Origin: Flavobacteriaceae bacterium
Lineage (GTDB): Bacteria; Bacteroidota; Bacteroidia; Flavobacteriales; Flavobacteriaceae
DNA: 64,000 nucleotides
Assembly: GCA_002746415.1 (NCBI GenBank)
Contig: NVXD01000001.1
Location: forward strand, 124,001-188,000
Direction: 5' to 3'
Made by a program: the position numbers and the translations under genes
Part shown: in pieces, positions 1,909-54,537 of the stretch
Numbering within the stretch: the first letter of the stretch is position 1
Layout of the letters: every line of letters begins with the position of its first letter
The notes under the pieces: generated by a model
The model's input: only the letters and a program-made list of their open reading frames with translations
Database searches by the model: none
Told to the model about the DNA's origin: nothing

Positions 1909-4278
1909 TTATTCCGTTCGTAAACTTTCTACTGGGTTTACTAGGGCCGATTTAATAGATTGAAAACCAACAGTTGCCAAGGTGATAATCAGGGCAAAAC
2001 CACCTGCTAAAGCGAACACCCACCATTGAATTTCTATTTTGTACGCAAAATCTTCTAACCAACTAGATATCAGAAAATAAGAAAGGGGAGATGCAATAAA
2101 AAATGCAATGCTTACAAGCTTTAGAAAGTCTTTGGAAAGCAAAGCTGTAATACTACTTACGCTTGCCCCCAATACTTTTCTAATTCCAATTTCTTTAATG
2201 CGTTCTTTTGCCATGAAAGCAGCCAAACCAAAAAGTCCCATACAAGAAATAAGGATGGAGATGAAGGCAAAATAGGTCGTTAAGGTCCCTGTTAGTGTCT
2301 CACTCTTATAAGCTGCCGCATACTCCTCATCAACAAAATCATAATGTAGTGGGACATCAGGTAAAACCTTTGTGAAAATGGCTCCTAAAGAGGCTAGCCC
2401 TATTTTTGTCTCATTAGCTTTCAATTTTACAAACATGGCTCCAGCATCATTTGGATCCAAAAAGAAAATTGATGGCTGAATGCTTTCATAAAGGGACCGA
2501 TTATGAAAATCTTTTAAAACGCCAATAATTTGCCTTTGACTTCCCCAAACCTCAATAGTTTTACCTACAGGGTCTTTAATGTTCATAATTTCAACCGCTT
2601 TTTGATTGACTACAATATTTAAAGTATCAGTACTCCCTTCCCTATAATAGCTCCCAGCATCTAATGGAATCTCAAAGACTTCTGGGAAGTTATGGGCCGT
2701 CCAAAGAATTGAAAATTCAATATGCTCTTGATCCTCACTTTTACCAGACCAATTAATGCCACTTGTAGATGCCCCCATATCTAAAGGGGACGGACCAACC
2801 AAAGTAACATCAGAAATACCATTTGAAGTAAGTAACTCATTGCGTAATACTTCATACTTGCTCGTAAGTTCCTGATCTTGATGAATGGATATGATATGCT
2901 CTTTGGCCAACCCTAAATCTTTCTCATTAATGAAGTTTACCTGTTGTTTTACGACAATGGCTATGACAATCAATAAAATAGAAAGGCCAAATTGAAGCAC
3001 AACAAGTCCCTGTCTAAAAGAAATAGTGTTCTTTTTTTCTTTTCCCAAACCTTTTAAGGCTGTAATAGGCTTAAAGGAGGAAATGACCAAAGCAGGATAA
3101 GCTCCTGATAAAAATGTAGTCAATATAAATACCCCTAGTATCGACAACCAAATTCCAAGGTTTGCTAAATCAATTTGCAACTCCTTGCCTAATAAAGTAC
3201 TAACGATAGGCAAAAGAAGCCATGTAAATAAATAGGCGAAAACGAAAGATATGAAGGTAATTAAAGAGGTTTCTGTAAAAAACTGACCAATTATAGCATT
3301 CTTATTTGCCCCAATTACTTTTCTCACCCCAATTTCACTAGCTCTTTTGGTTGCATAGGCTGTGGAAAGGTTGATGAAATTAATACAAGAAATAAGGAGC
3401 AGAAAGACGGCTGCCCAAGTAAATATTTTTACATATTCTATACGACCGCCACTTACTTGTGCCTTTTCATTAAATTCTCCATACAAATAATGCTCAGAAA
3501 ATTTTTGCAGAAAACTACCCTCCTTAGTTTCTCCTTCAATATTGTCTTGGAAGAGCGTATTGATTTTTTTGGAAACTTGTGCTACATCCACACCTTCTTT
3601 TAATAGGAATGCTCCTTGCATGCCATTATTACCCCATTCTAATAACCACTCATTACTATTTAAATGTTTCTTAAGACTGTAGTAAAAATCATTTTGAATG
3701 GAAGATTTATCAGGAAAATCCTCGTAAACTGCTGCTACTGTAAAATCTCCATTATCTAGTATTTTAATGCTACTCCCTATAGCTTCTTTTAACCAATTGT
3801 CTCCCCAAAAACGATGTGCAAGGCTTTCTGATATTGCTATGGCTTCGGGTTTCTCATCAAGTTGAGAAATATCCCCAATACTGATAGGAAAAGAAAAACT
3901 GCTGAAAAGACTTGCATTTCCAAAGGTCCCCTTTGCTCTATAATCGATATTATTTACTTCTAAATTATCTTCAAAAGTCCTCCCAATTGGAATATACGTC
4001 TGCACCTCAGGCAGTTGCTCTTTGGCAGCATGTAATAATTGATATGGAGCTGTTTCGTAAACATCCAAAACACCACCCTCTAAGGGGATTGTTCTTTTAA
4101 CACGGTACAGTTGTTCATTCTTAGCATGAAATTTATCCATACTATATTCGTCATATACCCAAAGTAACATTAAAAATGATACGGTAAGTGCTAAAGAAAA
4201 TCCAAGCACATTAATAAAAAAGTACCCTCTGTTTTTAAGAAGATTTCTCCATGCAATTTTAAAATAGTTGCGTATCAT
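1909..4278 (-). CDS. FtsX/MacB-type ABC transporter permease, 789 aa
   Basis: A double-length permease. Membrane segments are visible near residues 20-42, 285-307, 332-358, 374-394 and 425-445, with three more in the C-terminal 130 residues. FtsX signature motifs occur twice: SEIGVRKVIGA at about 314-324 and KEIGIRKVLGA at about 695-705. Extracytoplasmic MacB_PCD-like domains lie at about 45-280 and 450-660. It ends in the family tail NPVESLRTE. No ATPase domain is present, so it must use a separate ATPase, presumably the one at 12284-12979. It starts 3 bp after the stop of a DUF2807 gene and is followed by another, giving a permease/secreted-protein alternation. The substrate cannot be read from sequence. 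Confidence 0.93.
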   Translation of the reverse strand: MIRNYFKIAWRNLLKNRGYFFINVLGFSLALTVSFLMLLWVYDEYSMDKFHAKNEQLYRVKRTIPLEGGVLDVYETAPYQLLHAAKEQLPEVQTYIPIGRTFEDNLEVNNIDYRAKGTFGNASLFSSFSFPISIGDISQLDEKPEAIAISESLAHRFWGDNWLKEAIGSSIKILDNGDFTVAAVYEDFPDKSSIQNDFYYSLKKHLNSNEWLLEWGNNGMQGAFLLKEGVDVAQVSKKINTLFQDNIEGETKEGSFLQKFSEHYLYGEFNEKAQVSGGRIEYVKIFTWAAVFLLLISCINFINLSTAYATKRASEIGVRKVIGANKNAIIGQFFTETSLITFISFVFAYLFTWLLLPIVSTLLGKELQIDLANLGIWLSILGVFILTTFLSGAYPALVISSFKPITALKGLGKEKKNTISFRQGLVVLQFGLSILLIVIAIVVKQQVNFINEKDLGLAKEHIISIHQDQELTSKYEVLRNELLTSNGISDVTLVGPSPLDMGASTSGINWSGKSEDQEHIEFSILWTAHNFPEVFEIPLDAGSYYREGSTDTLNIVVNQKAVEIMNIKDPVGKTIEVWGSQRQIIGVLKDFHNRSLYESIQPSIFFLDPNDAGAMFVKLKANETKIGLASLGAIFTKVLPDVPLHYDFVDEEYAAAYKSETLTGTLTTYFAFISILISCMGLFGLAAFMAKERIKEIGIRKVLGASVSSITALLSKDFLKLVSIAFFIASPLSYFLISSWLEDFAYKIEIQWWVFALAGGFALIITLATVGFQSIKSALVNPVESLRTE

Positions 4279-4281
4279 TTA

Positions 4282-4800
4282 TTAATTTTTTATGATTAAA
4301 TTTTCAGAATCCAAGGTGCCTCTTTCATGGTCATTTCCTTTGCTAACCGTCCAGTTATTAGATTCTCCTGAAATAGTCAAATCACCACCATTCATGTTTA
4401 TATCTAAATTATCAGCATATACTATCATATCTGCAGCACCAAAGTCATCCAAAGTAATCACAAGGTTTTTTGATTCTATATGATTCATTCCATGAAATTG
4501 GGCTCTATCTTCTACGACAATCTTTCTAAGATGCCTACTGCTTACATATACCTGAACCACTTCATTATTCGCTTCACCTTTTGTATCTACTTCCAATAAA
4601 CCATCTCTAAAATTTACAATGACTTCAAGCGATGGTGGCACACTTACAATTCTTCGTATTTCTTGGTTTGCATCTTCATTGGTGAAAAACACCTCAGCTA
4701 CACCGCTTACTTTAATAATTTCAATAATGTCCCCCTTTGATTGCCCCATGATTGCATTGGACAATGTTAAAAAGAGCATTAAAATGATTAGTTTTTTCAT
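4282..4800 (-). CDS. Short secreted DUF2807-like (GIN-domain) protein, 172 aa
   Basis: The signal peptide covers about residues 1-19 (hydrophobic core ILMLFLTLSNAIMG, then QSKGD). The mature part of about 150 residues is beta-rich. It reads as a DUF2807-like protein with alternating strands (LEVIVNFRDGLLEVDT; VQVYVSSRHLRKIVV), followed by Asp/Asn/Gly-rich turns. It is shorter than the 253-residue relative at 1123-1884 and lacks that protein's YGEG turns. It lies between two permease genes, 23 bp after one and 3 bp before the next, and so is very likely in the same transcript. Function is unknown. The assignment to DUF2807 rests on pattern only and is less certain than for its larger neighbour. 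Confidence 0.7.
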   Translation of the reverse strand: MKKLIILMLFLTLSNAIMGQSKGDIIEIIKVSGVAEVFFTNEDANQEIRRIVSVPPSLEVIVNFRDGLLEVDTKGEANNEVVQVYVSSRHLRKIVVEDRAQFHGMNHIESKNLVITLDDFGAADMIVYADNLDINMNGGDLTISGESNNWTVSKGNDHERGTLDSENLIIKN

Positions 4801-4823: not shown

Positions 4824-7271
4824 TTATTCCGTTTGCAAACTTTTTACAGGATTTACATTTGCCGATGCCAGCGTTCTAATATTCATAATGACCAATGAGA
4901 TAAACAACATGGCCGCCCCACTAAATGCAAAAACCCACCAACTTAGACTAGTTTTATAGGCAAAATCCTCTAGCCAATTGCTGATGCCATACCAAGCTAT
5001 TGGTGCAGCTATAACAAAGGCAATGCCCACTAAAATCATAAATTCTTTACACAGCAGCACGTTCAATTGCACCAAACTTGCTCCCAAAACTTTTCGAATT
5101 CCAATTTCTTTTGTACGCCTTTCTGTGGTGTGAATGACCAACCCTAAAAGACCCAAACAGCTTATTAAAATGGCAAGTCCAGTTGCCCAGTTCAACAAAA
5201 CAGACATTTTACCTTCTTGTTCGTAAAATCGTTTTACTGTATCATCAATAAAATTCAATCGTATCTCGCTATCTGGATAAATACCTTTCCATATGTTTTC
5301 TACCTGTGCTATGGCTGCTGGCCAGTTTTCAGTGTTTTGGGTCTGTAAGGAAAAATGAACTGTGTTTAATTGAGAATATTCATCCTGATCCCAATCACCA
5401 ATAAGCGCCATAGGATTGATGGATGATTTTAAGGAACGCTGGTTAAAATCTTCCATGACAGCAACAATCGGGTAAGTGGCATCATCTAAGGTTAGCACTT
5501 GACCAATAGCATCTTGAGGATTATTAAACCCTATCATTTTCAAATAGGCCTCATTAATAACAAATTCCCGTATGGTATCATTAAGCGGTTTACGGCCAGC
5601 CAACAGTTTTAAATCATATAGATTCAAATAATTCTGGTCTCCATAAAGAAGCTCCAAGCTGGTATGTATCTCTTTTTCATCGGTTAAATAGGTGACACTA
5701 CTTGAGTGGGTGTTAAAAGATGCTGGCGGACTACCTCCAAGACTTACACCACTTACCTGCGGCAGGGCTTCTATCTCCTTTAAAAAGCGCATGCGTTTAT
5801 CTATGGAAGCATCACTCCAAGGAGTTCTGGCATAGGCAATTGCTTCTGTTTTAAATCCCATGTCCTTGGTCATTACATAATTGATCTGCTTCCCCACAAG
5901 TATAGTGGCAATGATAAAAACTTGGGCAATTACGAATTGAAAGACGGTTAAATATTTCCGTAGCAAGGACTTATTTTGCCCTGCAACTGCCTTACTTTTT
6001 AATACGGATACTGGCTTAAAATGGGAAAGTACCATTGCAGGATAAAAACCTGCTAGCAAGCTTACTGTTATAAGTAAAACTGCAATTAAAATTATAACTA
6101 TTGGGCTTGTAAAAAGTTCAAAACTTAAATCTTTGGGAACAAAATCTGCAAAGATTTTTAGCAACCAAGCCGAAAAGAATAGAGAAACAATGCCAGCTAC
6201 AATAGTCAATAAAAATGTTTCTCCTATAAACTGAAAAACAAGCTGTTTTTTAGAACTTCCTAGTGTTTTTCGGATGCCTATTTCCTTAGCCCGTCTTGTA
6301 GCATTCGCTGTATTTAGGTTTATAAAGTTTATACAGCCCAAGAGCAACAAAAACAAGGCTATAAAAGCCAGACTGACCAAAACTGTCTTACTTGCTGTAC
6401 TTCCACTGTTATTAAATATTCCAAAATTGGAATTAAAATGAAGATCATTCAAGGGTTGTAAATAGAACTTTCTATTTTGACCATAAGAAAGCATTTCTTC
6501 ACTCTCGTGCTCTTTGGCAAGCCTGTCTAATTGTTCCTGAAAAAGCAATTCTTTGTCTTGACCAACTAGCTTAATAAACACTTGAGAACCAGAGCTTGTA
6601 CTGTTCCATTGATCATTAATAATACGGTCTGTCATATTTAAACTGCTTGCAGTTTTAAAAGACACAAACTCTTGAAAAATAAAATCAGATCGTTTATCAA
6701 AATCACCTACAATTCCGGCAACTTTTACCGGTATAGAATCATTATACATCAAAATTTTACCTAGCATTTCTCCAGGTGGAAGGTCTGGAAAGTAGGTTGC
6801 TCCTCTAGATTCTGTTAGTACTACTTCATTAGGTCCAGATAAAATATTGTAAGGAGTGCCAGCCAACCATTGGTATGGAAACAACTCAAAATAGTTTTGA
6901 TCCGCATAAATAAGATGTTCTGGATTTTGAAATACCTTTTCAGTTTCTGAATTCTCTATTTTATTTAGGTATAAATTGAAAAAAGCACTTGTCAATTCAA
7001 CAATGGCCATACTTTCTCTTAGCGTTGTACCAAGAGGAACCGGTACACCACCATTGTAAAAACTGCCTTCGGGCGATGTGAATTCTGAAGTGACACGATA
7101 GATACGCTCACTATCTGGGTGAAATTTATCAAAAGTTAAATCATAATAAATGATTGCACCTATGACGAAAGAAGCACTAAGACCAATGGCTAAACCAATA
7201 ATATTTATGCTGGAAAAGGTTTTGTTACCCCACAAATTTCGAAATGCAATTTTAATATAATTTTTAATCAT
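4824..7271 (-). CDS. FtsX/MacB-type ABC transporter permease, 815 aa
   Basis: The same architecture as its neighbours: an N-terminal membrane helix at about residues 20-43, a periplasmic domain to about 290, an FtsX core with KEIGIRKTLGSS at about 329-340, a second periplasmic domain, then a second FtsX core with KEIGIRKVLGAS at about 721-732 and the tail NPVKSLQTE. No ATP-binding motifs are present. The ATG at 7271 opens the usual MIKNYIKIAFRNL start. It is separated from the preceding permease by 112 bp, the largest gap within the permease run. That gap holds an 18-bp direct repeat just after the preceding stop codon, so a processing site or internal promoter is possible there. Substrate unknown. 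Confidence 0.93.
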   Translation of the reverse strand: MIKNYIKIAFRNLWGNKTFSSINIIGLAIGLSASFVIGAIIYYDLTFDKFHPDSERIYRVTSEFTSPEGSFYNGGVPVPLGTTLRESMAIVELTSAFFNLYLNKIENSETEKVFQNPEHLIYADQNYFELFPYQWLAGTPYNILSGPNEVVLTESRGATYFPDLPPGEMLGKILMYNDSIPVKVAGIVGDFDKRSDFIFQEFVSFKTASSLNMTDRIINDQWNSTSSGSQVFIKLVGQDKELLFQEQLDRLAKEHESEEMLSYGQNRKFYLQPLNDLHFNSNFGIFNNSGSTASKTVLVSLAFIALFLLLLGCINFINLNTANATRRAKEIGIRKTLGSSKKQLVFQFIGETFLLTIVAGIVSLFFSAWLLKIFADFVPKDLSFELFTSPIVIILIAVLLITVSLLAGFYPAMVLSHFKPVSVLKSKAVAGQNKSLLRKYLTVFQFVIAQVFIIATILVGKQINYVMTKDMGFKTEAIAYARTPWSDASIDKRMRFLKEIEALPQVSGVSLGGSPPASFNTHSSSVTYLTDEKEIHTSLELLYGDQNYLNLYDLKLLAGRKPLNDTIREFVINEAYLKMIGFNNPQDAIGQVLTLDDATYPIVAVMEDFNQRSLKSSINPMALIGDWDQDEYSQLNTVHFSLQTQNTENWPAAIAQVENIWKGIYPDSEIRLNFIDDTVKRFYEQEGKMSVLLNWATGLAILISCLGLLGLVIHTTERRTKEIGIRKVLGASLVQLNVLLCKEFMILVGIAFVIAAPIAWYGISNWLEDFAYKTSLSWWVFAFSGAAMLFISLVIMNIRTLASANVNPVKSLQTE

Positions 7272-12283: not shown

Positions 12284-12979
12284 CTAAACCATTGCTCCTA
12301 TTTCCCTGTTTTTACTTTCAGTTACGACTTGTCCGTCAAAAAGATTTACCACACGGTGTGCGTAATGTGAATCCCTATCCGAGTGCGTTACCATTACTAT
12401 GGTGGTGCCTTCTTGGTTCATTTCTGTTAACAAATTCATTACTTCTATTCCGTTTTTAGAATCCAGGTTTCCTGTAGGCTCATCTGCCAATATTAATTTT
12501 GGTATGGTGACTACTGCTCTAGAAATCGCAACACGCTGTTGTTGTCCACCAGATAATTGTTGCGGAAAATGTTTTGCCCTATGAGCAATTTTCATACGCT
12601 CCAGAACCTTCATTACCTTTTCTTTACGCTCTGTTTTGTTCATCTTAAGGTAAATCAAAGGCAGTTCTACATTTTCATATACCGTAAGTTCATCAATAAG
12701 GTTAAAACTTTGAAAAACAAAACCTAGATTTCCCTTTCTGAGTTGCGTACGCTGACTTTCCTTTAAACCAGCAACTTCATGCCCAGCAAATTGATAGCTT
12801 CCCTCTGTTGGGTTGTCTAACATTCCTATGATATTCAATAGGGTAGATTTACCACATCCTGATGGCCCCATAATGGCTACAAATTCGCCCTCTTTTACAT
12901 TTAGGTTGACACTGTTCAATGCCAAGGTTTCTACTTCCTCAGTTCTAAAGCTCTTTTTTAACTCTTTGATTTTTATCAT
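12284..12979 (-). CDS. ABC transporter ATP-binding protein (LolD/MacB type), 231 aa
   Basis: A complete nucleotide-binding domain with every core motif: Walker A GPSGCGKST at 38-46, Q-loop Gln90, signature LSGGQ at 142-146, Walker B LILADEP at 162-168 and the switch His199. The length and the sequence around the motifs (NIIGMLD; AISRAV) are those of the LolD/MacB/FtsE-like group that drives FtsX-type permeases. It is the only ATPase gene for at least five permease genes on this strand. It lies 147 bp downstream of the membrane fusion protein gene and 65 bp upstream of the first permease gene. It is expected on the cytoplasmic face of the inner membrane. Confidence 0.96.
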   Translation of the reverse strand: MIKIKELKKSFRTEEVETLALNSVNLNVKEGEFVAIMGPSGCGKSTLLNIIGMLDNPTEGSYQFAGHEVAGLKESQRTQLRKGNLGFVFQSFNLIDELTVYENVELPLIYLKMNKTERKEKVMKVLERMKIAHRAKHFPQQLSGGQQQRVAISRAVVTIPKLILADEPTGNLDSKNGIEVMNLLTEMNQEGTTIVMVTHSDRDSHYAHRVVNLFDGQVVTESKNREIGAMV

Positions 12980-48611: not shown

Positions 48612-49712
48612 CTAATTATAGATTTCAGCATTGGGATAAAATGCTCCAATAGAAAACCAATAGGCAATAAACGATACCGTAGATTTCAATTTATTCCCTT
48701 GACCCGGACCTGAAATAGCTTCTCCGAACACATTCCATACTGTTCCTTCATTATCACTAAAAAAAGCTTCAGCTCCATTAAAGGCATACTCAAACTCTAA
48801 AGAATTTGTATTACCCTCCAATTCAAAAGAAACTATGGTTGTTCCATCGCCAACCAGAAGAATATCCTTTCCATTGACCTCATCTATAATAATATTACCA
48901 TTTCCAAAAGCATTAAACTGATATGCCTTGGCAGCCTCATCATCTATAATGGCATGCACACGTTCTTTTGAAGGCAATCTTTCATCCTCAGGATTTAACG
49001 GGAATATTAAATAGGAATTATTAGTCTTATAATCTCCATATGGATAAACTCCATAATTTCTAGAAAAACCTGTATCGGCATTCATCACCTTTGTATCAGG
49101 ATACATTGATTTCCATACTTCCCAAGTTGTCTCTAAAACAGGGATAACCTCTGGTATTTCTCCTATTAAATCACCATTGATGCATTTTAAACCTACCTGT
49201 GACCAATTACTATCGGTTGCCCTGTCATAAAGAATTAAATTGTTATTGTACAACAAACCAGAAACCCCAAAAGAAGTTTCTTCACCATCCATAATTCTGC
49301 TCCAACCCATTGAAGTCCCAGTTAATGGGCATAAAGAAACAGTAATTGATGTTCCATTGACATCATCATTTACCACTTCATGCCAATCCAAAATAAAATG
49401 TGGATATGCTCTAGTCTCGTCTCCAACTTTAAGTCCTATGACCAATAAGTCATCAGAACCTGCCGGGACATCATTTACTGTAAAAAATTTAGGGTTATCT
49501 ATAGATGGTATACCATCTTTTCCTGGACCACCATCTCTTACTTCCGCTACTGGCACTAACCAACCGTCTGTGGCTGTTCCTCCAATACTACCGCCCCCGC
49601 CCGAGTTGATGTTTCCCGCTGTGTTATCATCATCACCGCCAGACACATCACTACTACTGCATGCAACCACAAGCAATGCACTGTAAAGCATTATTAAAAT
49701 TTTATTTTTCAT
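48612..49712 (-). CDS. DUF3179 domain-containing lipoprotein, 366 aa
   Basis: Lipoprotein signal with lipobox LVVAC (Cys18), then a serine/glycine/aspartate-rich tether. The DUF3179 domain occupies most of the rest. Recognisable pieces are RAYPHFILDWHEVVND, SLCPLTGTSMGW (the conserved cysteine-containing segment), FGVSGLLYNNNLILYDRATDSNW and NADTGFSRNYGVYPYG. The family's function is unknown; it is widespread in marine bacteria. Its ATG shares one base with the stop of the outer-membrane protein gene before it (TAATG), so the two are translationally coupled and probably act together at the outer membrane. Confidence 0.88.
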   Translation of the reverse strand: MKNKILIMLYSALLVVACSSSDVSGGDDDNTAGNINSGGGGSIGGTATDGWLVPVAEVRDGGPGKDGIPSIDNPKFFTVNDVPAGSDDLLVIGLKVGDETRAYPHFILDWHEVVNDDVNGTSITVSLCPLTGTSMGWSRIMDGEETSFGVSGLLYNNNLILYDRATDSNWSQVGLKCINGDLIGEIPEVIPVLETTWEVWKSMYPDTKVMNADTGFSRNYGVYPYGDYKTNNSYLIFPLNPEDERLPSKERVHAIIDDEAAKAYQFNAFGNGNIIIDEVNGKDILLVGDGTTIVSFELEGNTNSLEFEYAFNGAEAFFSDNEGTVWNVFGEAISGPGQGNKLKSTVSFIAYWFSIGAFYPNAEIYN

Positions 49713-50710
49713 TATTCTGAGTTTAGGTTAATTTTATTTTTTTTACCGTTTAAATTAAATACAAAGCCACTTGAAAACCTATAAGTAGGCGTAAGCTGTG
49801 TCCCATCCACATTACTGATGACAGGAAGTTCCAATTTGTTTAAAAATGTTATTTCTGGAGACAGTTTTATAGACAAACTAGGGATTACAAACAGCCATTT
49901 CCCTCCAGTGTTATCTAACTCATTACCATCAATGATATCCCTATTGGCACTTCTGTATTTAAAAGTAAGACCAGGATTTATAATGGTATTAAAAACCAAA
50001 AACTGATCAGTTACCCCAAAAAACAGTTGAGTTTCATCTCCATACTCGTAAATGGATGCCCCATCTAAGTACTCTTTGTTTTCTCCTGTAATTCTATTTA
50101 TGACTCTTGCAGAAAAAGTAGTAGTTGGCCTAAATTTAAAATTTTTACTAAATGAAGCAAATAAAATAATATCCCAGGCCCCACTTCCTGGTTGTAAATC
50201 TGCAATATATGTTATCCCATCACCATTTACTTCGTCAAAAGACCCTAATGGAATTTTACTCCCAGCTCCTAAAGTCACGTCACTTGTTTCTCCTAAAATT
50301 TTTGGAAAACTATATTTGGCCAACACAACCGCATCCCCAAAACCACTTGTTTGTTGCAAGTCTGTATTTCCAAACTGATTGATAATTCTACGCTGGTTTA
50401 CCCAAGTAAACAAAGTCTCAACAGACCATCTATTTGTAATTGAATAACCAATGTTAAACAGTGCAGAATGTGTGATTCTGTGTCTTGAATCATCATCCAA
50501 TTTATCACTCCCCGCATTAAGAGTACTTAAATTATTATAATCATAGTGCAGTCCCAACTGTACGGAACCCTTGCCTTCGTTTGATAAACCAAGGCTGTTG
50601 GACAAGGGTATTCCTCCAGAGCAACAGGTTTGAGAATATAATGATTGAATTGATAAAAAAATCAATAAGATAAGAACATGTCTAATGTACATAAGTTTGG
50701 ATTTGCACAT
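49712..50710 (-). CDS. Outer-membrane beta-barrel protein with N-terminal Cys-Cys pair, 332 aa
   Basis: A signal peptide (hydrophobic stretch HVLILLIFLSIQSLYSQ) is followed by TCCSGGIP; residues Cys29-Cys30 sit at the very start of the mature chain. The remainder alternates amphipathic strands ending in aromatic residues (for example RWSVETLFTWVNQR; VVLAKYSFPKIL; YRFSSGFVFNL), fitting a barrel of about 12-14 strands. Similar proteins are annotated as transporters or outer-membrane proteins near metal genes, but no substrate is known. An internal ATG at 50692 would give an equally good signal peptide and is a possible start. It is coupled to the DUF3179 gene by a one-base overlap. Confidence 0.8.
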   Translation of the reverse strand: MCKSKLMYIRHVLILLIFLSIQSLYSQTCCSGGIPLSNSLGLSNEGKGSVQLGLHYDYNNLSTLNAGSDKLDDDSRHRITHSALFNIGYSITNRWSVETLFTWVNQRRIINQFGNTDLQQTSGFGDAVVLAKYSFPKILGETSDVTLGAGSKIPLGSFDEVNGDGITYIADLQPGSGAWDIILFASFSKNFKFRPTTTFSARVINRITGENKEYLDGASIYEYGDETQLFFGVTDQFLVFNTIINPGLTFKYRSANRDIIDGNELDNTGGKWLFVIPSLSIKLSPEITFLNKLELPVISNVDGTQLTPTYRFSSGFVFNLNGKKNKINLNSE

Positions 50711-50786: not shown

Positions 50787-51290
50787 TCAAAAAGCCAACA
50801 TCCAGATCGCCATGGCCAACATAATGGCATTTTCTATGAATGTAGCCCCAGTCATAGGCAGTTTTAAAGCAGTTCCCAAACAAGCACAGCGAATACTTTT
50901 TTTATCCATTAAGGTTTTAACAACACCAAAAGTTGTAATGCCCAATACTAGTATTGTCACATAAAGTGCAATTTGAGTCTGAAATCGCATTAAAAACAAA
51001 AGTCCTAGTACAAGTTCAATAAAGGGATACTCCCAGCCATAAGCTGGAAAGTCCTTTGCCAATGGGTCATACATCCTAAAACTATCTGGAAAACCTCTCA
51101 AGTCTAATAACTAAAAACAATGTAGAAAAGCCACATAAAATCCAACATGGCCTCTACAATATTCCAATCTTTATAATTCAGTAAAATTTACCGAAACACT
51201 AGATACTCCTTTTACATTTTCTAATTTTCCCTAGACCAATGCTACGTATCCGCTACAGGTCATTCCTAATACGCTATAGGTGTGTTTCAT
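50787..51290 (-). pseudogene. Decayed HMA domain-MauE/DoxX membrane fusion gene
   Basis: Reading from an ATG at 51290 gives MKHTYSVLGMTCSGYVALV then a stop (TAG), KLENVKGVSSVSVNFTEL then a stop (TAA): the first half of a heavy-metal-associated domain whose second metal cysteine is Tyr. After a deletion, MLDFMWLFYIVFS appears in a second frame. LLDLRGFPDSFRMYDPLAKDF then continues in a third stretch that stays open to 50787, with three further membrane helices and the CACLGTALKLPM motif of MauE-like proteins. Intact relatives are single fused HMA-MauE proteins of roughly 230 residues. This copy has two stops, a frameshift and an internal loss. A 104-residue remnant (from a TTG at 51101) could still be made. 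Confidence 0.8.
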
Positions 51291-51293
51291 ACG

Positions 51294-51662
51294 TTAATGC
51301 TTGTGCTTATGCTCATCACTATCATCTGTATTGTCTTCCCTATACTTACAGCAAGGGTGAACACTCTCGTAAGCTTCCTCTGTAGCCTTCAATTCTTTAG
51401 TGTCATGACCAACAGACACCAAAGCTGTTTTTATTACCATAGGGTTAGTCTTGCGTTCATCAATGATTAATGACAGTTGGTGAGAGGGAATATCCCAAAT
51501 AGCATATTTTACTCCTGTTACTCCTAGCGCTGCTTTTTCTATCCGCATTTTGCACATTTCACATTTACCATCAACTTCAAATGCTACTTTTTTATTCTTT
51601 TCCTGAGCAAACATTCCTATTGACAGCAACAAAAATGTCATTCCTAAAATTATTTTTTTCAT
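51294..51662 (-). CDS. Secreted heavy-metal-associated (HMA) domain protein with His-rich tail, 122 aa
   Basis: The start was set at the ATG at 51662 (MKKIILGMTFLLLSIGMFAQ, a clear signal peptide). A longer frame from 51710 would overlap the TonB receptor gene. The HMA fold begins at residue 26, with the metal-binding pair Cys34 and Cys37 (DGKCEMCKMR). The C-terminus adds a second possible site: HPCC (Cys104-Cys105) and a tail ending EHKHKH. Periplasmic HMA proteins of this kind bind soft metals such as copper. It follows the TonB receptor gene by 22 bp and precedes the decayed HMA-MauE gene by 3 bp, all on one strand. Confidence 0.88.
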   Translation of the reverse strand: MKKIILGMTFLLLSIGMFAQEKNKKVAFEVDGKCEMCKMRIEKAALGVTGVKYAIWDIPSHQLSLIIDERKTNPMVIKTALVSVGHDTKELKATEEAYESVHPCCKYREDNTDDSDEHKHKH

Positions 51663-51684: not shown

Positions 51685-53922
51685 TTATAATTTAAATCTA
51701 AACCCCGCATAATAAGTAGCTCCCATAATAGGGGCGTACACTATACTGGTATCAAAATATGCGCCAAAAGGGTCATCAGCACCCAAAATAGGATTATTTT
51801 GGCTAAAGTTAGTTAAATTCTCCCCTCCTATGTACACCTCAAATTTCTTAGAGAATACTTTGGTGATTTGTGCATTCATTAAACTATAGGATTCAGAAAA
51901 CTCATTTAACTTGTATGGCTCTGGGTTAATTGATGTATTGTGCAACCGTTGTTTACTCAATGTATGTAGCGTATAATCCATACGCCACTGAGAGCCATTC
52001 TCTTTTGGCTGGGTCACATATCCTAAATTGGCAAAAAATCGATGTTGGGCCTGCAAAGGTTTCTGCAACAAACCTGATTGATAATCGGTTTTTACATCGT
52101 AGTACTTGTATGCGGTACGCAATTCCACATTTTTTATCACCTCATAATTCACCTCAAATTGCACACTACTGGCAGTACTTTCACCTGTTAGATTATAGAA
52201 TGAAACTTCTTGAGGGTTCTCCCAATCCACCACAACTTGATTTTCAAAATCGGTTCTATAAAAATCCAATGTAATGTTCCCTGTTCTTTCAAAAGCTGTG
52301 AATCCTTGTAAAAAACTAACACCATAGTTCCAAGCTACCTCAGGATCTAAGCCATATATTTTTCCATCAGTATCTAAAATTCGAATCTGTCTCGAGGAGG
52401 CAAACAATTGCTGGTTTTCAGCAAAAATATTTGCCGCTCTTCTTCCTTTTCCAAATGAAACCCTAAGGCTTCCTTTTTCCCAAGGAGTATAACGCGCATG
52501 TAACCTGGGTGTCATAAACGTTCCCAATCTATTATGAGCATCAACCCTAACTCCTGCCACCAAACTTAATCTTTCTAGGTTGTCATAGCTATATTCAAAA
52601 AAAGCACCTACTGAATTATCCGTTCTTGCATATGTGCTTCCATTTACAAATTCATCAAATTTATCATATGTAAAAGACAACCCCGTTTTGAATTTGTTTT
52701 GAGTATTTCCAATAATGGAATTGAACAGAGCATTAGAATATATACTTTGATGTGTAATGTCATATTGATTAAATCCATAATAAGAATCTTGTTTATGGAT
52801 ACTGTAAGACGATTGAAAACCAAAACTTTGATATGGAATTTCCGGGAAAACATATCCCAATTTCACCGAAGAATCAAATCTTCTTGTATCTATTTCACCT
52901 CCCCAAGAATTAGTGGTAAACTTATCCCTATCCGGATTAAAATTAGTTTCACCTACCTGCTTTTCATCATTTAAAAAACGAACGTTAATAAAGCTTACCC
53001 ATCCAGTTTCTGGATTTTGGTACTGCCAACGATTCATAATATTTATCTGATTGGCCAAGGGAACATCTAAAAACCCATCATTGTTTTCATCAACTTTGTC
53101 CTTCCTAAGATTACCATGCAGATACAATCCCGTACTCCATTTTTCGGTAAGTTTTCTACTGATATGCGTGTTAAGCTCTAACCTACCGTTTTTATTGGCA
53201 TATGCATTCACAAAAAGGGCATGGTCTGTAAGTGGTTTTACCAGTTCTGTGTTTATTTGTCCTGAAATACTTTCATAACCATTAACAACACTGCCTGCAC
53301 CTTTTGTAATTTGAATACTTTCTACCCAAGTTCCGGGTGTGAAAGTTAACCCATATGCCTGAGAAGCGCCTCTTACCATTGGTATGTTCTCCTGGGTGAT
53401 TAATAAATAAGGGCTGGTTAGCCCCAACATCTGAATTTGTTTTGTTCCGGTAAGTGCGTCAGAAAAATTAACATCAATAGCCGGGTTGGTCTCAAAACTT
53501 TCTGAAAGATTGCAACAAGCTGCCTTTAGTAATTCGGCGCTGTTCACTGTAATAACATTTCGCGCGTTGAAAAAAGTTTTTTGTACAGCATCTCGCTCTT
53601 TTACCACCACTACTTCATCCAATGCATTGGAAGCTTGCAACCAATGATGTACCATTTTTGGTTCGTCTATAGTTAGGGTATCAGCTTTAAAGCCTACATA
53701 ACTTATAATTAATTTATTAAACTCTTTTTTATAAGGAATAGAAAACAGCCCTTCTGCATTGGTCATTGTCCCCACTTGAGAATTTAACCAATACACATTG
53801 GCTCCCGGAAGTCCAATATGTTTGTTTTCTGAATTTGCCTCCATAATCATCCCTTCTACCTTATCATTTTGTGAAGTGGCCATCAATGGGAGCAATAGTA
53901 ATAGATATATATATTGTTTCAT
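51685..53922 (-). CDS. TonB-dependent outer-membrane receptor, probably metal-related, 745 aa
   Basis: A signal peptide (about 1-17) is followed by a carboxypeptidase-regulatory-like beta-sandwich (about 20-100, VEGMIMEANSENKHIGLPGANVYW), the plug domain (about 105-235, SIQITKGAGSVVNGYESISGQIN), then a 22-strand-type barrel ending in the aromatic terminus TYYAGFRFKL. In the plug, AACCNLSESFETNPAIDV carries a Cys136-Cys137 pair, typical of a receptor subgroup found beside HMA-domain genes. It likely imports a metal ion or metal complex (copper is the first guess from neighbours). It lies between the HYC_CC_PP gene (106 bp) and the HMA gene (22 bp). Confidence 0.92.
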   Translation of the reverse strand: MKQYIYLLLLLPLMATSQNDKVEGMIMEANSENKHIGLPGANVYWLNSQVGTMTNAEGLFSIPYKKEFNKLIISYVGFKADTLTIDEPKMVHHWLQASNALDEVVVVKERDAVQKTFFNARNVITVNSAELLKAACCNLSESFETNPAIDVNFSDALTGTKQIQMLGLTSPYLLITQENIPMVRGASQAYGLTFTPGTWVESIQITKGAGSVVNGYESISGQINTELVKPLTDHALFVNAYANKNGRLELNTHISRKLTEKWSTGLYLHGNLRKDKVDENNDGFLDVPLANQINIMNRWQYQNPETGWVSFINVRFLNDEKQVGETNFNPDRDKFTTNSWGGEIDTRRFDSSVKLGYVFPEIPYQSFGFQSSYSIHKQDSYYGFNQYDITHQSIYSNALFNSIIGNTQNKFKTGLSFTYDKFDEFVNGSTYARTDNSVGAFFEYSYDNLERLSLVAGVRVDAHNRLGTFMTPRLHARYTPWEKGSLRVSFGKGRRAANIFAENQQLFASSRQIRILDTDGKIYGLDPEVAWNYGVSFLQGFTAFERTGNITLDFYRTDFENQVVVDWENPQEVSFYNLTGESTASSVQFEVNYEVIKNVELRTAYKYYDVKTDYQSGLLQKPLQAQHRFFANLGYVTQPKENGSQWRMDYTLHTLSKQRLHNTSINPEPYKLNEFSESYSLMNAQITKVFSKKFEVYIGGENLTNFSQNNPILGADDPFGAYFDTSIVYAPIMGATYYAGFRFKL

Positions 53923-54028: not shown

Positions 54029-54430
54029 TCAAATAATAAAAACCTGGTCCAAAACCTGTATGTCTCTGACCAGTATGGGAGGTGGGTAGTCTTTATTTGG
54101 GACAGGCTGTTCCAATACCACATCAAATAAACCAAAATAAGAATGGGTATAGGCTGCTATGAATAATTGTTGGTCACTACTTAAATCATTAAAAGTGATT
54201 TTTAGATCATCTAGTCCTTCAACAAAAGTAACTTCATCTGAACAGCAATTCATTTCAATATTCTCTTCAGCATCCAACAATTGCATACCACAACCCTCAG
54301 CCTCCTGAAAAATAGCAATATCCATAAGACGACCCATACAATAATGCTTCTCTACTGTCCACGAAGTAGTGGAAACCAGTAAGAATAAGGCCATGAATAC
54401 TGATGCTATTTTACGAAACAAATCTTTCAT
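54029..54430 (-). CDS. HYC_CC_PP family secreted protein, 133 aa
   Basis: The start was set at the ATG at 54430; an upstream GTG at 54433 would add one residue. A signal-like helix lies at about 8-25. The three motifs that name the family are all visible: HYC at 29-31, CC at 62-63 (EMNCCSDE) and PPP at 116-118 (YPPPILVRDIQVLDQVF). It is found in Bacteroidota, commonly just before a TonB-dependent receptor of the metal type, as here. The conserved histidine and cysteines suggest metal binding in the periplasm, but the role has not been established. It is first in the metal-related gene run, 106 bp before the receptor. Confidence 0.88.
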   Translation of the reverse strand: MKDLFRKIASVFMALFLLVSTTSWTVEKHYCMGRLMDIAIFQEAEGCGMQLLDAEENIEMNCCSDEVTFVEGLDDLKITFNDLSSDQQLFIAAYTHSYFGLFDVVLEQPVPNKDYPPPILVRDIQVLDQVFII

Positions 54431-54537
54431 CACAACAAAAATACAAAATATTACACCTGCCCTATAGCAGCATATACATTATTAACTAAATTTTAAGTGC
54501 AATATTGTCGTAATTTTACCTTGAAAATATATCGATA

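Follow-up and report, generated by a model that had tools for sequence, protein, structure and literature searches.

The founding role of MauE is in the maturation of methylamine dehydrogenase. The Pfam profile of that family (PF07291) is matched both by an intact orthologue of the gene studied here (L024, 67.4 bits) and by the remnant of that gene described below; in these, however, the MauE part is fused to an HMA domain and lies within metal loci, unlike the setting of the founding role. The HMA part is of the Atx1/CopZ/MerP type (PF00403), and the intact L024 protein shares the CxxC motif of such domains, whereas the gene studied here has Tyr at the second Cys and a stop. Among the open-access papers listed in our searches, we found none that describes an HMA-MauE fusion. 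At the outer membrane, copper uptake has been proposed for OprC and for the TonB receptor G2EC70 of the flavobacterium Bizionia argentinensis (PMC11213822).

The window, by which we mean the whole 64,000-base stretch that was analysed (G000:C26:124001-188000), belongs to the 3.82 Mb draft assembly of a marine-type flavobacterium, in 36 contigs and with a completeness of 96.75%. Within it, the sequence from 51290 to 50787 is in our judgement very probably a recently formed unitary pseudogene of HMA-MauE, and most likely one visible stage of a loss that recurs in several lineages of the family.

Results

A nonsense codon, a lost metal cysteine and two deletions disrupt the HMA-MauE gene

On the minus strand of the window, the genes of the locus run in the order HYC_CC_PP, TonB receptor, HMAsec, broken HMA-MauE, barrel and DUF3179 (Table 1), and the island that they form lies between what we take, from the sequences, to be GroEL on one side and a GAF-type gene with PurH on the other. 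The ATG of HMA-MauE lies 3 bases after the HMAsec stop. From the matching Met, the L024 orthologue has 240 codons plus a stop, or 723 bases by arithmetic, as compared with 504 here. Translation from the ATG at 51290 gives MKHTYSVLGMTCSGYVALV, a stop, GKLENVKGVSSVSVNFTEL, a stop, RLEYCRGHVGFYVAFLHCF, a stop and then LLDLRGFPDSF..., with the in-frame stops at 51233-51231, 51173-51171 and 51113-51111 (codons 20, 40 and 60). An earlier, sequence-only reading had counted two such stops; they are real, but three precede the open stretch, and of these the first alone interrupts the HMA reading frame as a nonsense codon, the second and third sitting in sequence that is read out of frame past a deletion.

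Table 1 Coordinates of the features of the locus, as positions in the window
Feature	Positions	Strand	Basis or remark
HYC_CC_PP family protein	54029..54433	-	NF047658, 2.2e-31
TonB-dependent receptor, 745 aa, open	51685..53922	-	omega 0.048 vs 0.045, not significant
HMAsec: small protein, N-terminal hydrophobic stretch, GKCEMC motif; open	51294..51662	-	weak NCBIfam MerT_CopZ_Se match
Broken HMA-MauE gene, ATG to stop	50787..51290	-	504 bases; translation and tblastn
HMA remnant, 35 codons, MKHTYSVLGMTCSGYVALV-stop-GKLENVKGVSSVSVN	51186..51290	-	tblastn; PF00403 28.4 bits, one TAG inside
Tyr codon TAC at second metal cysteine	51246..51248	-	column is Cys in 95/95 unique orthologues
TAG nonsense codon, within HMA part	51231..51233	-	
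Out-of-frame remnant, end of TM1 and TM2, ILLNYKDWNIVEAMLDFMWLFYIVFS	51110..51187	-	tblastn
Second deletion junction, about 7-10 bases gone, original frame restored; limits approximate	51104..51115	-	
Open 104-codon remnant, MauE C-part: amphipathic stretch, TM3-TM5, CACLG loop	50787..51101	-	Pfam; helices from L046 model
"Barrel", 332 aa, CCSGG near N end; name from its look	49712..50710	-	
DUF3179 protein	48612..49712	-	PF11376, 2.3e-84

The intact protein of L003 (in G033; the same gene as L024) served as the tblastn query. In the first frame, and interrupted by one stop, it aligned over the HMA part as far as roughly residue 35. A gap of about 65 residues comes next, then ILLNYKDWNIVEAMLDFMWLFYIVFS in another frame, and after a further loss of about 7-10 bases the sequence from LLDLRGF to the end is back in the first frame. 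Both the deletion of the middle and the frameshift before LLDLRGFPDS that the sequence-only reading had described were thereby recovered, the latter as the small loss that restores the first frame. Against a 700-base stretch, the C-part was matched far beyond chance, at 1e-60 with L003 and 1e-63 with L002, and the corresponding values were 3e-9 and 8e-6 for the HMA piece and 5e-12 and 4e-12 for the TM1/TM2 piece. The HMA piece exceeds the PF00403 cut-off of 24.8 bits, yet it has the TAG inside and lacks a CxxC in an open domain; the Tyr at the second metal cysteine, also spotted earlier, together with the stop behind it makes a working HMA domain impossible from this gene.

The HMA part and the C-part share one frame, and a shortened HMA-MauE could in principle be produced by recoding, through readthrough combined with frameshifting. 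Such a product would nevertheless call for three stops to be passed, with an out-of-frame stretch between, and would still be without the metal Cys and most of TM1, and we consider it scarcely credible. The draft state of the assembly, in 36 contigs, raises the separate prospect of an assembly or sequencing error in a gene that is intact in the organism. An error would, however, have to account for a nonsense codon, a missense change that hits an invariant Cys and two deletions, one of about 65 codons and one of about 7-10 bases, all within 300 bases, while the adjoining genes are open and remnants of the same gene are kept in other lineages (see below); we therefore judge it very unlikely.

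No second place with HMA-MauE, intact or otherwise, was found in the assembly, where matches to PF00403 and PF07291 coincide only in the window gene, although at 96.75% completeness a second copy could have been missed. The other genes of the locus are all open, as had been claimed, and the two that were tested, those for the TonB receptor and HMAsec, are constrained: relaxed constraint was detected in neither (12 taxa). For HMAsec, omega was 0.022 on the window branch as compared with 0.034 elsewhere (not significant; 12 of 23 taxa). The HMAsec protein, which ends in HPCCKY...HKHKH, had no Pfam match, and the barrel protein matched neither Pfam nor NCBIfam. A PDB sequence search with the TonB receptor returned just weak matches to the colicin I receptor. 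Across 121 receptors, a CC pair at residues 136-137 is invariant and Met/His at residues 165, 269 and 376 are near-invariant, and these residues are possible metal ligands.

Intact orthologues join an HMA domain to a MauE membrane part

Among 60 genomes searched (the window's own included), 16 others hold an orthologue (E 3.5e-27 at most) in a frame of 236-262 codons, and 4 more hold weak matches alone. From a scan of named genomes that gave 570 confirmed places, we took the best 80 by match to the window C-part, which is not an even sample; these loci are mostly Flavobacteriaceae by title. Some genomes are likely to be in both collections, as overlapping positions of G027 and L105 indicate. 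At all 96 orthologous loci (16 + 80; 95 different proteins) the gene is intact, with 229-255 aa from the first ATG. A naturally short, MauE-only orthologue was found neither at these 96 loci nor among the matches listed from 349 genomes of the family, which have open frames of 234-281 codons, as compared with 107 for the window. Together with translation, tblastn and Pfam, the 96 intact loci bear out the sequence-only reading of an eroded HMA-MauE fusion. Viral contigs held one distant partial match only (38% identity). One HMA-MauE protein, 75% identical to the window C-part, comes from a contig titled Candidatus Marinimicrobia (AG-426-E20; L082), which may be mislabelled or reflect transfer. 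Two HMA-MauE loci are present in Psychroserpens mesophilus JCM 13413: L087, in a TonB/HMAsec setting, and L054, where the fetched stretch gave no TonB match.

The intact protein consists of HMA (PF00403) and MauE (PF07291) domains by Pfam. In an AlphaFold model of the L046 protein (mean pLDDT 78.4, pTM 0.58), an HMA fold at residues 2-66 is followed by a disordered linker and by predicted helices at 87-103, 110-131, 136-149 (in two parts), 151-169, 174-197 and 215-235, with residues 200-213 around CACLG poorly ordered. The window remnant aligns from after the second long helix, so that neither the HMA domain nor the first two helices are part of it. A fold search with the model found nothing at 0.001 or better; its best matches, spanning about 67 residues, were to MerP, HAH1 and further HMA domains and reached E 2.6e-3, most of the best 50 rows were HMA domains, and three rows for copper ATPases covered more of the model only at an rmsd over 17. 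By sequence, the closest solved relatives of the L024 HMA domain are copper ATPase and CopZ-like domains. These relatives and the settings of the loci suggest that copper is the metal.

In most TonB-type loci, HMA-MauE lies between HYC and TonB. It lies behind HMAsec, as in the window, at 10 loci (Allomuricauda, Muricauda, Flagellimonas, Croceivirga and Croceitalea), where the order is HYC-TonB-HMAsec-MauE. The tree of the MauE end part is too weakly supported to bear on an origin of the window gene, together with its position, in the Allomuricauda-type arrangement; the TonB tree pairs the window with G080 instead.

The C-part remnant is open and the break appears recent

The open frame of 104 codons starts with TTG at 51101, and an internal ATG at 51074 would yield 95 aa. 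It matches PF07291 at 55.3 bits (1.1e-14; cut-off 27) over profile positions 29-127 of 128, thus in the C-part only, and shares 61-79% identity with the other 14 rows of alignment A1, in keeping with the earlier description of a downstream part that is open and well conserved. These features raise the question of whether the remnant, of 104 or 95 residues, continues to be produced and to serve as a three-helix membrane protein that has the CACLG loop and is without the HMA domain, TM1 and TM2. Such a half-protein might serve the TonB/HMAsec pair and represent one of several routes by which the family has dismantled the fusion, another being the HMA-only gene at L168; we regard both the use of the remnant and this role for it as unlikely, for the reasons that follow.

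Besides the open frame, an omega below 1 would be consistent with use. On a 23-taxon tree, the rough estimate for the C-part was 0.079 on the window branch and 0.053 elsewhere, which are indistinguishable (log-likelihood difference 0.36), and with 12 taxa the estimates were 0.095 and 0.047 (difference 0.9). These values are rough because the window branch is saturated at synonymous sites: under free or shared omega, its length was fitted at about 3 to 8 with the C-part, HMAsec and TonB, and it came to as much as 39.5 with the upstream set and 307 with the short HMA piece. An omega of 1 for the whole window branch was rejected for the C-part (log-likelihood difference 7.5); its upper limit of about 0.2 (difference 2.0) would, by arithmetic, permit roughly 15% of the branch to be neutral. 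For the upstream pieces (61 codons), omega was 0.158 as compared with 0.104, which is not significant, and a value of 1 was marginally rejected (2.0); the optimiser was limited to 60 iterations, and for the upstream set with 12 taxa the freer model had the lower likelihood, not having converged. The window branch probably for the most part predates the break.

Of the 36 C-part columns that at least 98% of orthologues conserve, the window alters none, as compared with 5 of 13 upstream (p 0.0007), but 3 of those 5 lie at or past the deletion junctions; without the junction columns the counts are 2 of 10 upstream and 0 of 36 in the C-part (p 0.04), so that the test looked strong only because these columns had been counted. 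At cut-offs of 100, 95 and 90%, p was 0.23, 0.07 and 0.16. In the C-part, no column changed out of 49 conserved in at least 95% of orthologues, and 1 of 64 at 90%, a record that speaks for use.

Residues private to the window number 5 of 35 in the HMA piece, the stop included and junction columns excluded (4 of 95 orthologues reach that), and 3 of 104 in the C-part (reached by 12 of 95). By this measure the HMA piece looks more decayed, as a used remnant would also lead one to expect, although the ratio of 6 upstream to 3 in the C-part does not differ from the 123 to 134 of the orthologues (p 0.32). Against use, the private changes in the C-part include one from a hydrophobic position (commonest residues Ile/Val/Leu/Ala) to Glu and one from Glu/Lys to Gly. 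The TM1/TM2 piece, with its single private residue in 26 (equalled or exceeded by 28 of 95 orthologues), makes the break look recent, and after a recent break an open C-part frame is expected; that the three disabling lesions all lie upstream of the C-part has a chance of about 0.19. Nor do promoter-like matches between 50600 and 51400 favour use, with 2 found as compared with 3.2 expected from shuffles.

Mean C-part identity of the window to 22 taxa is 0.771, as compared with 0.792 for 160 comparable pairs, and the C-part of the window has diverged slightly more quickly than would be predicted from TonB, with the second lowest residual of 23 taxa, a further point against use; the HMAsec residual of the window is the third highest of the 23. 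Overall, with synonymous sites saturated, the constraint tests show a small and mostly non-significant acceleration of the window gene. They fit a break that is young relative to the branch and a C-part that is perhaps slightly accelerated, and an open frame is in that case no proof of use. A remnant of this form is also absent from the 96 orthologous loci and from the matches listed in the 349 family genomes. Of the two options that the sequence-only reading had left, a recent loss of the membrane step and a remnant in use, we favour recent loss and hold use to be improbable.

Many relatives lack HMA-MauE, keep remnants of it or have another gene in its place

Of the 349 family genomes, 222 have a TonB orthologue (E <=1e-150) and 148 a MauE match (1e-20). 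Both occur in 116 (the window's broken gene included), TonB alone in 106 and MauE alone in 32. Among the 65 genera with at least two TonB-bearing genomes, 14 are mixed, 28 have MauE throughout and 23 are without it throughout. That about half of the family's sampled TonB-bearing genomes are without the gene, and that other lineages keep remnants of it, could not be seen from the window's letters.

We read 67 of the 106 TonB-only loci, namely those with coordinates among the matches listed, so that the least similar receptors are missing from the sample. HMAsec follows TonB in all 67. In 13, an HMA-bearing frame of P-type-ATPase size (799-855 codons) precedes TonB; Pfam confirmed a P-type ATPase in L133, the one of the 13 checked. 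Beside the L133 ATPase, at 4215-4781, is an AraC-type regulator whose N-terminal CxxC (MVCDRC) resembles an HMA start. At another locus (L146 6612-8850, in G250) the TonB receptor matches in two overlapping pieces, as if frameshifted, with a frame of 636 codons.

Remnants of HMA-MauE are clear at five of the 67 loci and borderline at a sixth. At L145, some 20-26 HMA residues are fused in frame to the TonB gene; L147 keeps the final 18 residues; L151 keeps about 29 HMA residues, with Gly at the second Cys, and then the last helix; L168 (4607-4816) has an open HMA domain of 69 residues, with both cysteines kept, alone in the HMA-MauE slot, which is the opposite half to that kept in the window; and L191 has, after HMAsec, an HMA piece that contains a stop and a C-part that is frameshifted. 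The L151 sequence at 5927-6103 is an open 58-residue chimera of the HMA start and the last MauE helix; GroEL matches there in two overlapping pieces, so that this assembly may hold indel errors. The scores at L145, L147, L151 and L168 exceed those of all 1005 shuffled slots, whereas the 25.4 bits of the borderline L182 are reached in 2 of 1005; the shuffles keep two-base blocks and span only the 400 bases before TonB, so that L191 falls outside this control.

On a TonB tree of 121 rows (53 labelled intact, 48 none, 13 ATPase and 7 remnant, the window included), presence and absence need 21 changes, of which 18 are forced by starred branches, and the seven remnants are seven separate changes, six of them forced. 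Excluded from the tree were 43 of the 96 MauE-bearing loci, in whose fetched stretch no TonB orthologue reached 1e-100. L175 was labelled none, though an HMA-bearing frame of 917 codons lies about 3.4 kb upstream. Change counts of this kind cannot separate loss from regain; the remnants, however, do show loss, and at loci free of remnants we would likewise presume loss rather than gain. G080, the sister of the window on this tree (support 89, not starred), keeps HYC-TonB-HMAsec, with no trace of MauE either before TonB or after HMAsec. In G001, the one other genome of the genus in the collection, the island from HYC to DUF3179 is absent between GroEL and the GAF gene, which lie about 190 bases apart (L131, G001:C1:2676000-2694000, about 12568-12760); genome-wide, G001 has no MauE or HMAsec match, and its best TonB match is 28% identical.

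Discussion

In the intact protein, an Atx1/CopZ-like HMA domain bearing the CxxC is fused to a MauE membrane part that has some five helices and a CACLG loop. We propose that this protein probably acts as the inner-membrane step of a locus for copper, or a similar soft metal, alongside the TonB receptor and HMAsec, a secreted CxxC protein; the direction of transport is something we infer. In the window lineage, a nonsense codon, the change of Cys to Tyr and two deletions have taken out the HMA domain, TM1 and TM2, and the 104 open codons would be the part that has not yet decayed, presumably functionless, rather than a sign of use. With both the TonB receptor and HMAsec apparently under constraint, the locus is probably still functional in the absence of the fusion.

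One pseudogene is nothing unusual; more can be learned from the broader pattern. About half of the sampled TonB-bearing genomes (106/222) retain the TonB receptor without HMA-MauE, with HMAsec beside it in the 67 loci read and sometimes an ATPase-sized gene in the slot, and many relatives lack the gene, have it replaced or keep only remnants, all of which suggests that the fusion is a dispensable or exchangeable inner-membrane step of the locus. The 14 mixed genera offer close natural pairs with and without the fusion, suited to testing its role in copper handling.

The locus differs from the known copper systems that it most resembles. The CxxxM and HxM parts of the OprC motif (PMC11213822) are missing from the window receptor, which has no C...M and no H.M across its 745 aa and has the invariant CC pair instead. 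A link to Cus-type RND copper/silver efflux is seen in Winogradskyella eckloniae (L043), where an intact HMA-MauE lies between OEP and CusB-like genes, with an AcrB-family pump upstream of them; unlike Cus-type RND operons, however, the window locus has no RND pump among the genes listed and has a TonB receptor instead. The P1B-type ATPases (L133 and others) occupy the same HYC-TonB slot as HMA-MauE does elsewhere and, like it, start with an HMA domain, but they differ in carrying the membrane engine of an E1-E2 ATPase, in a protein of 831 aa at L133.
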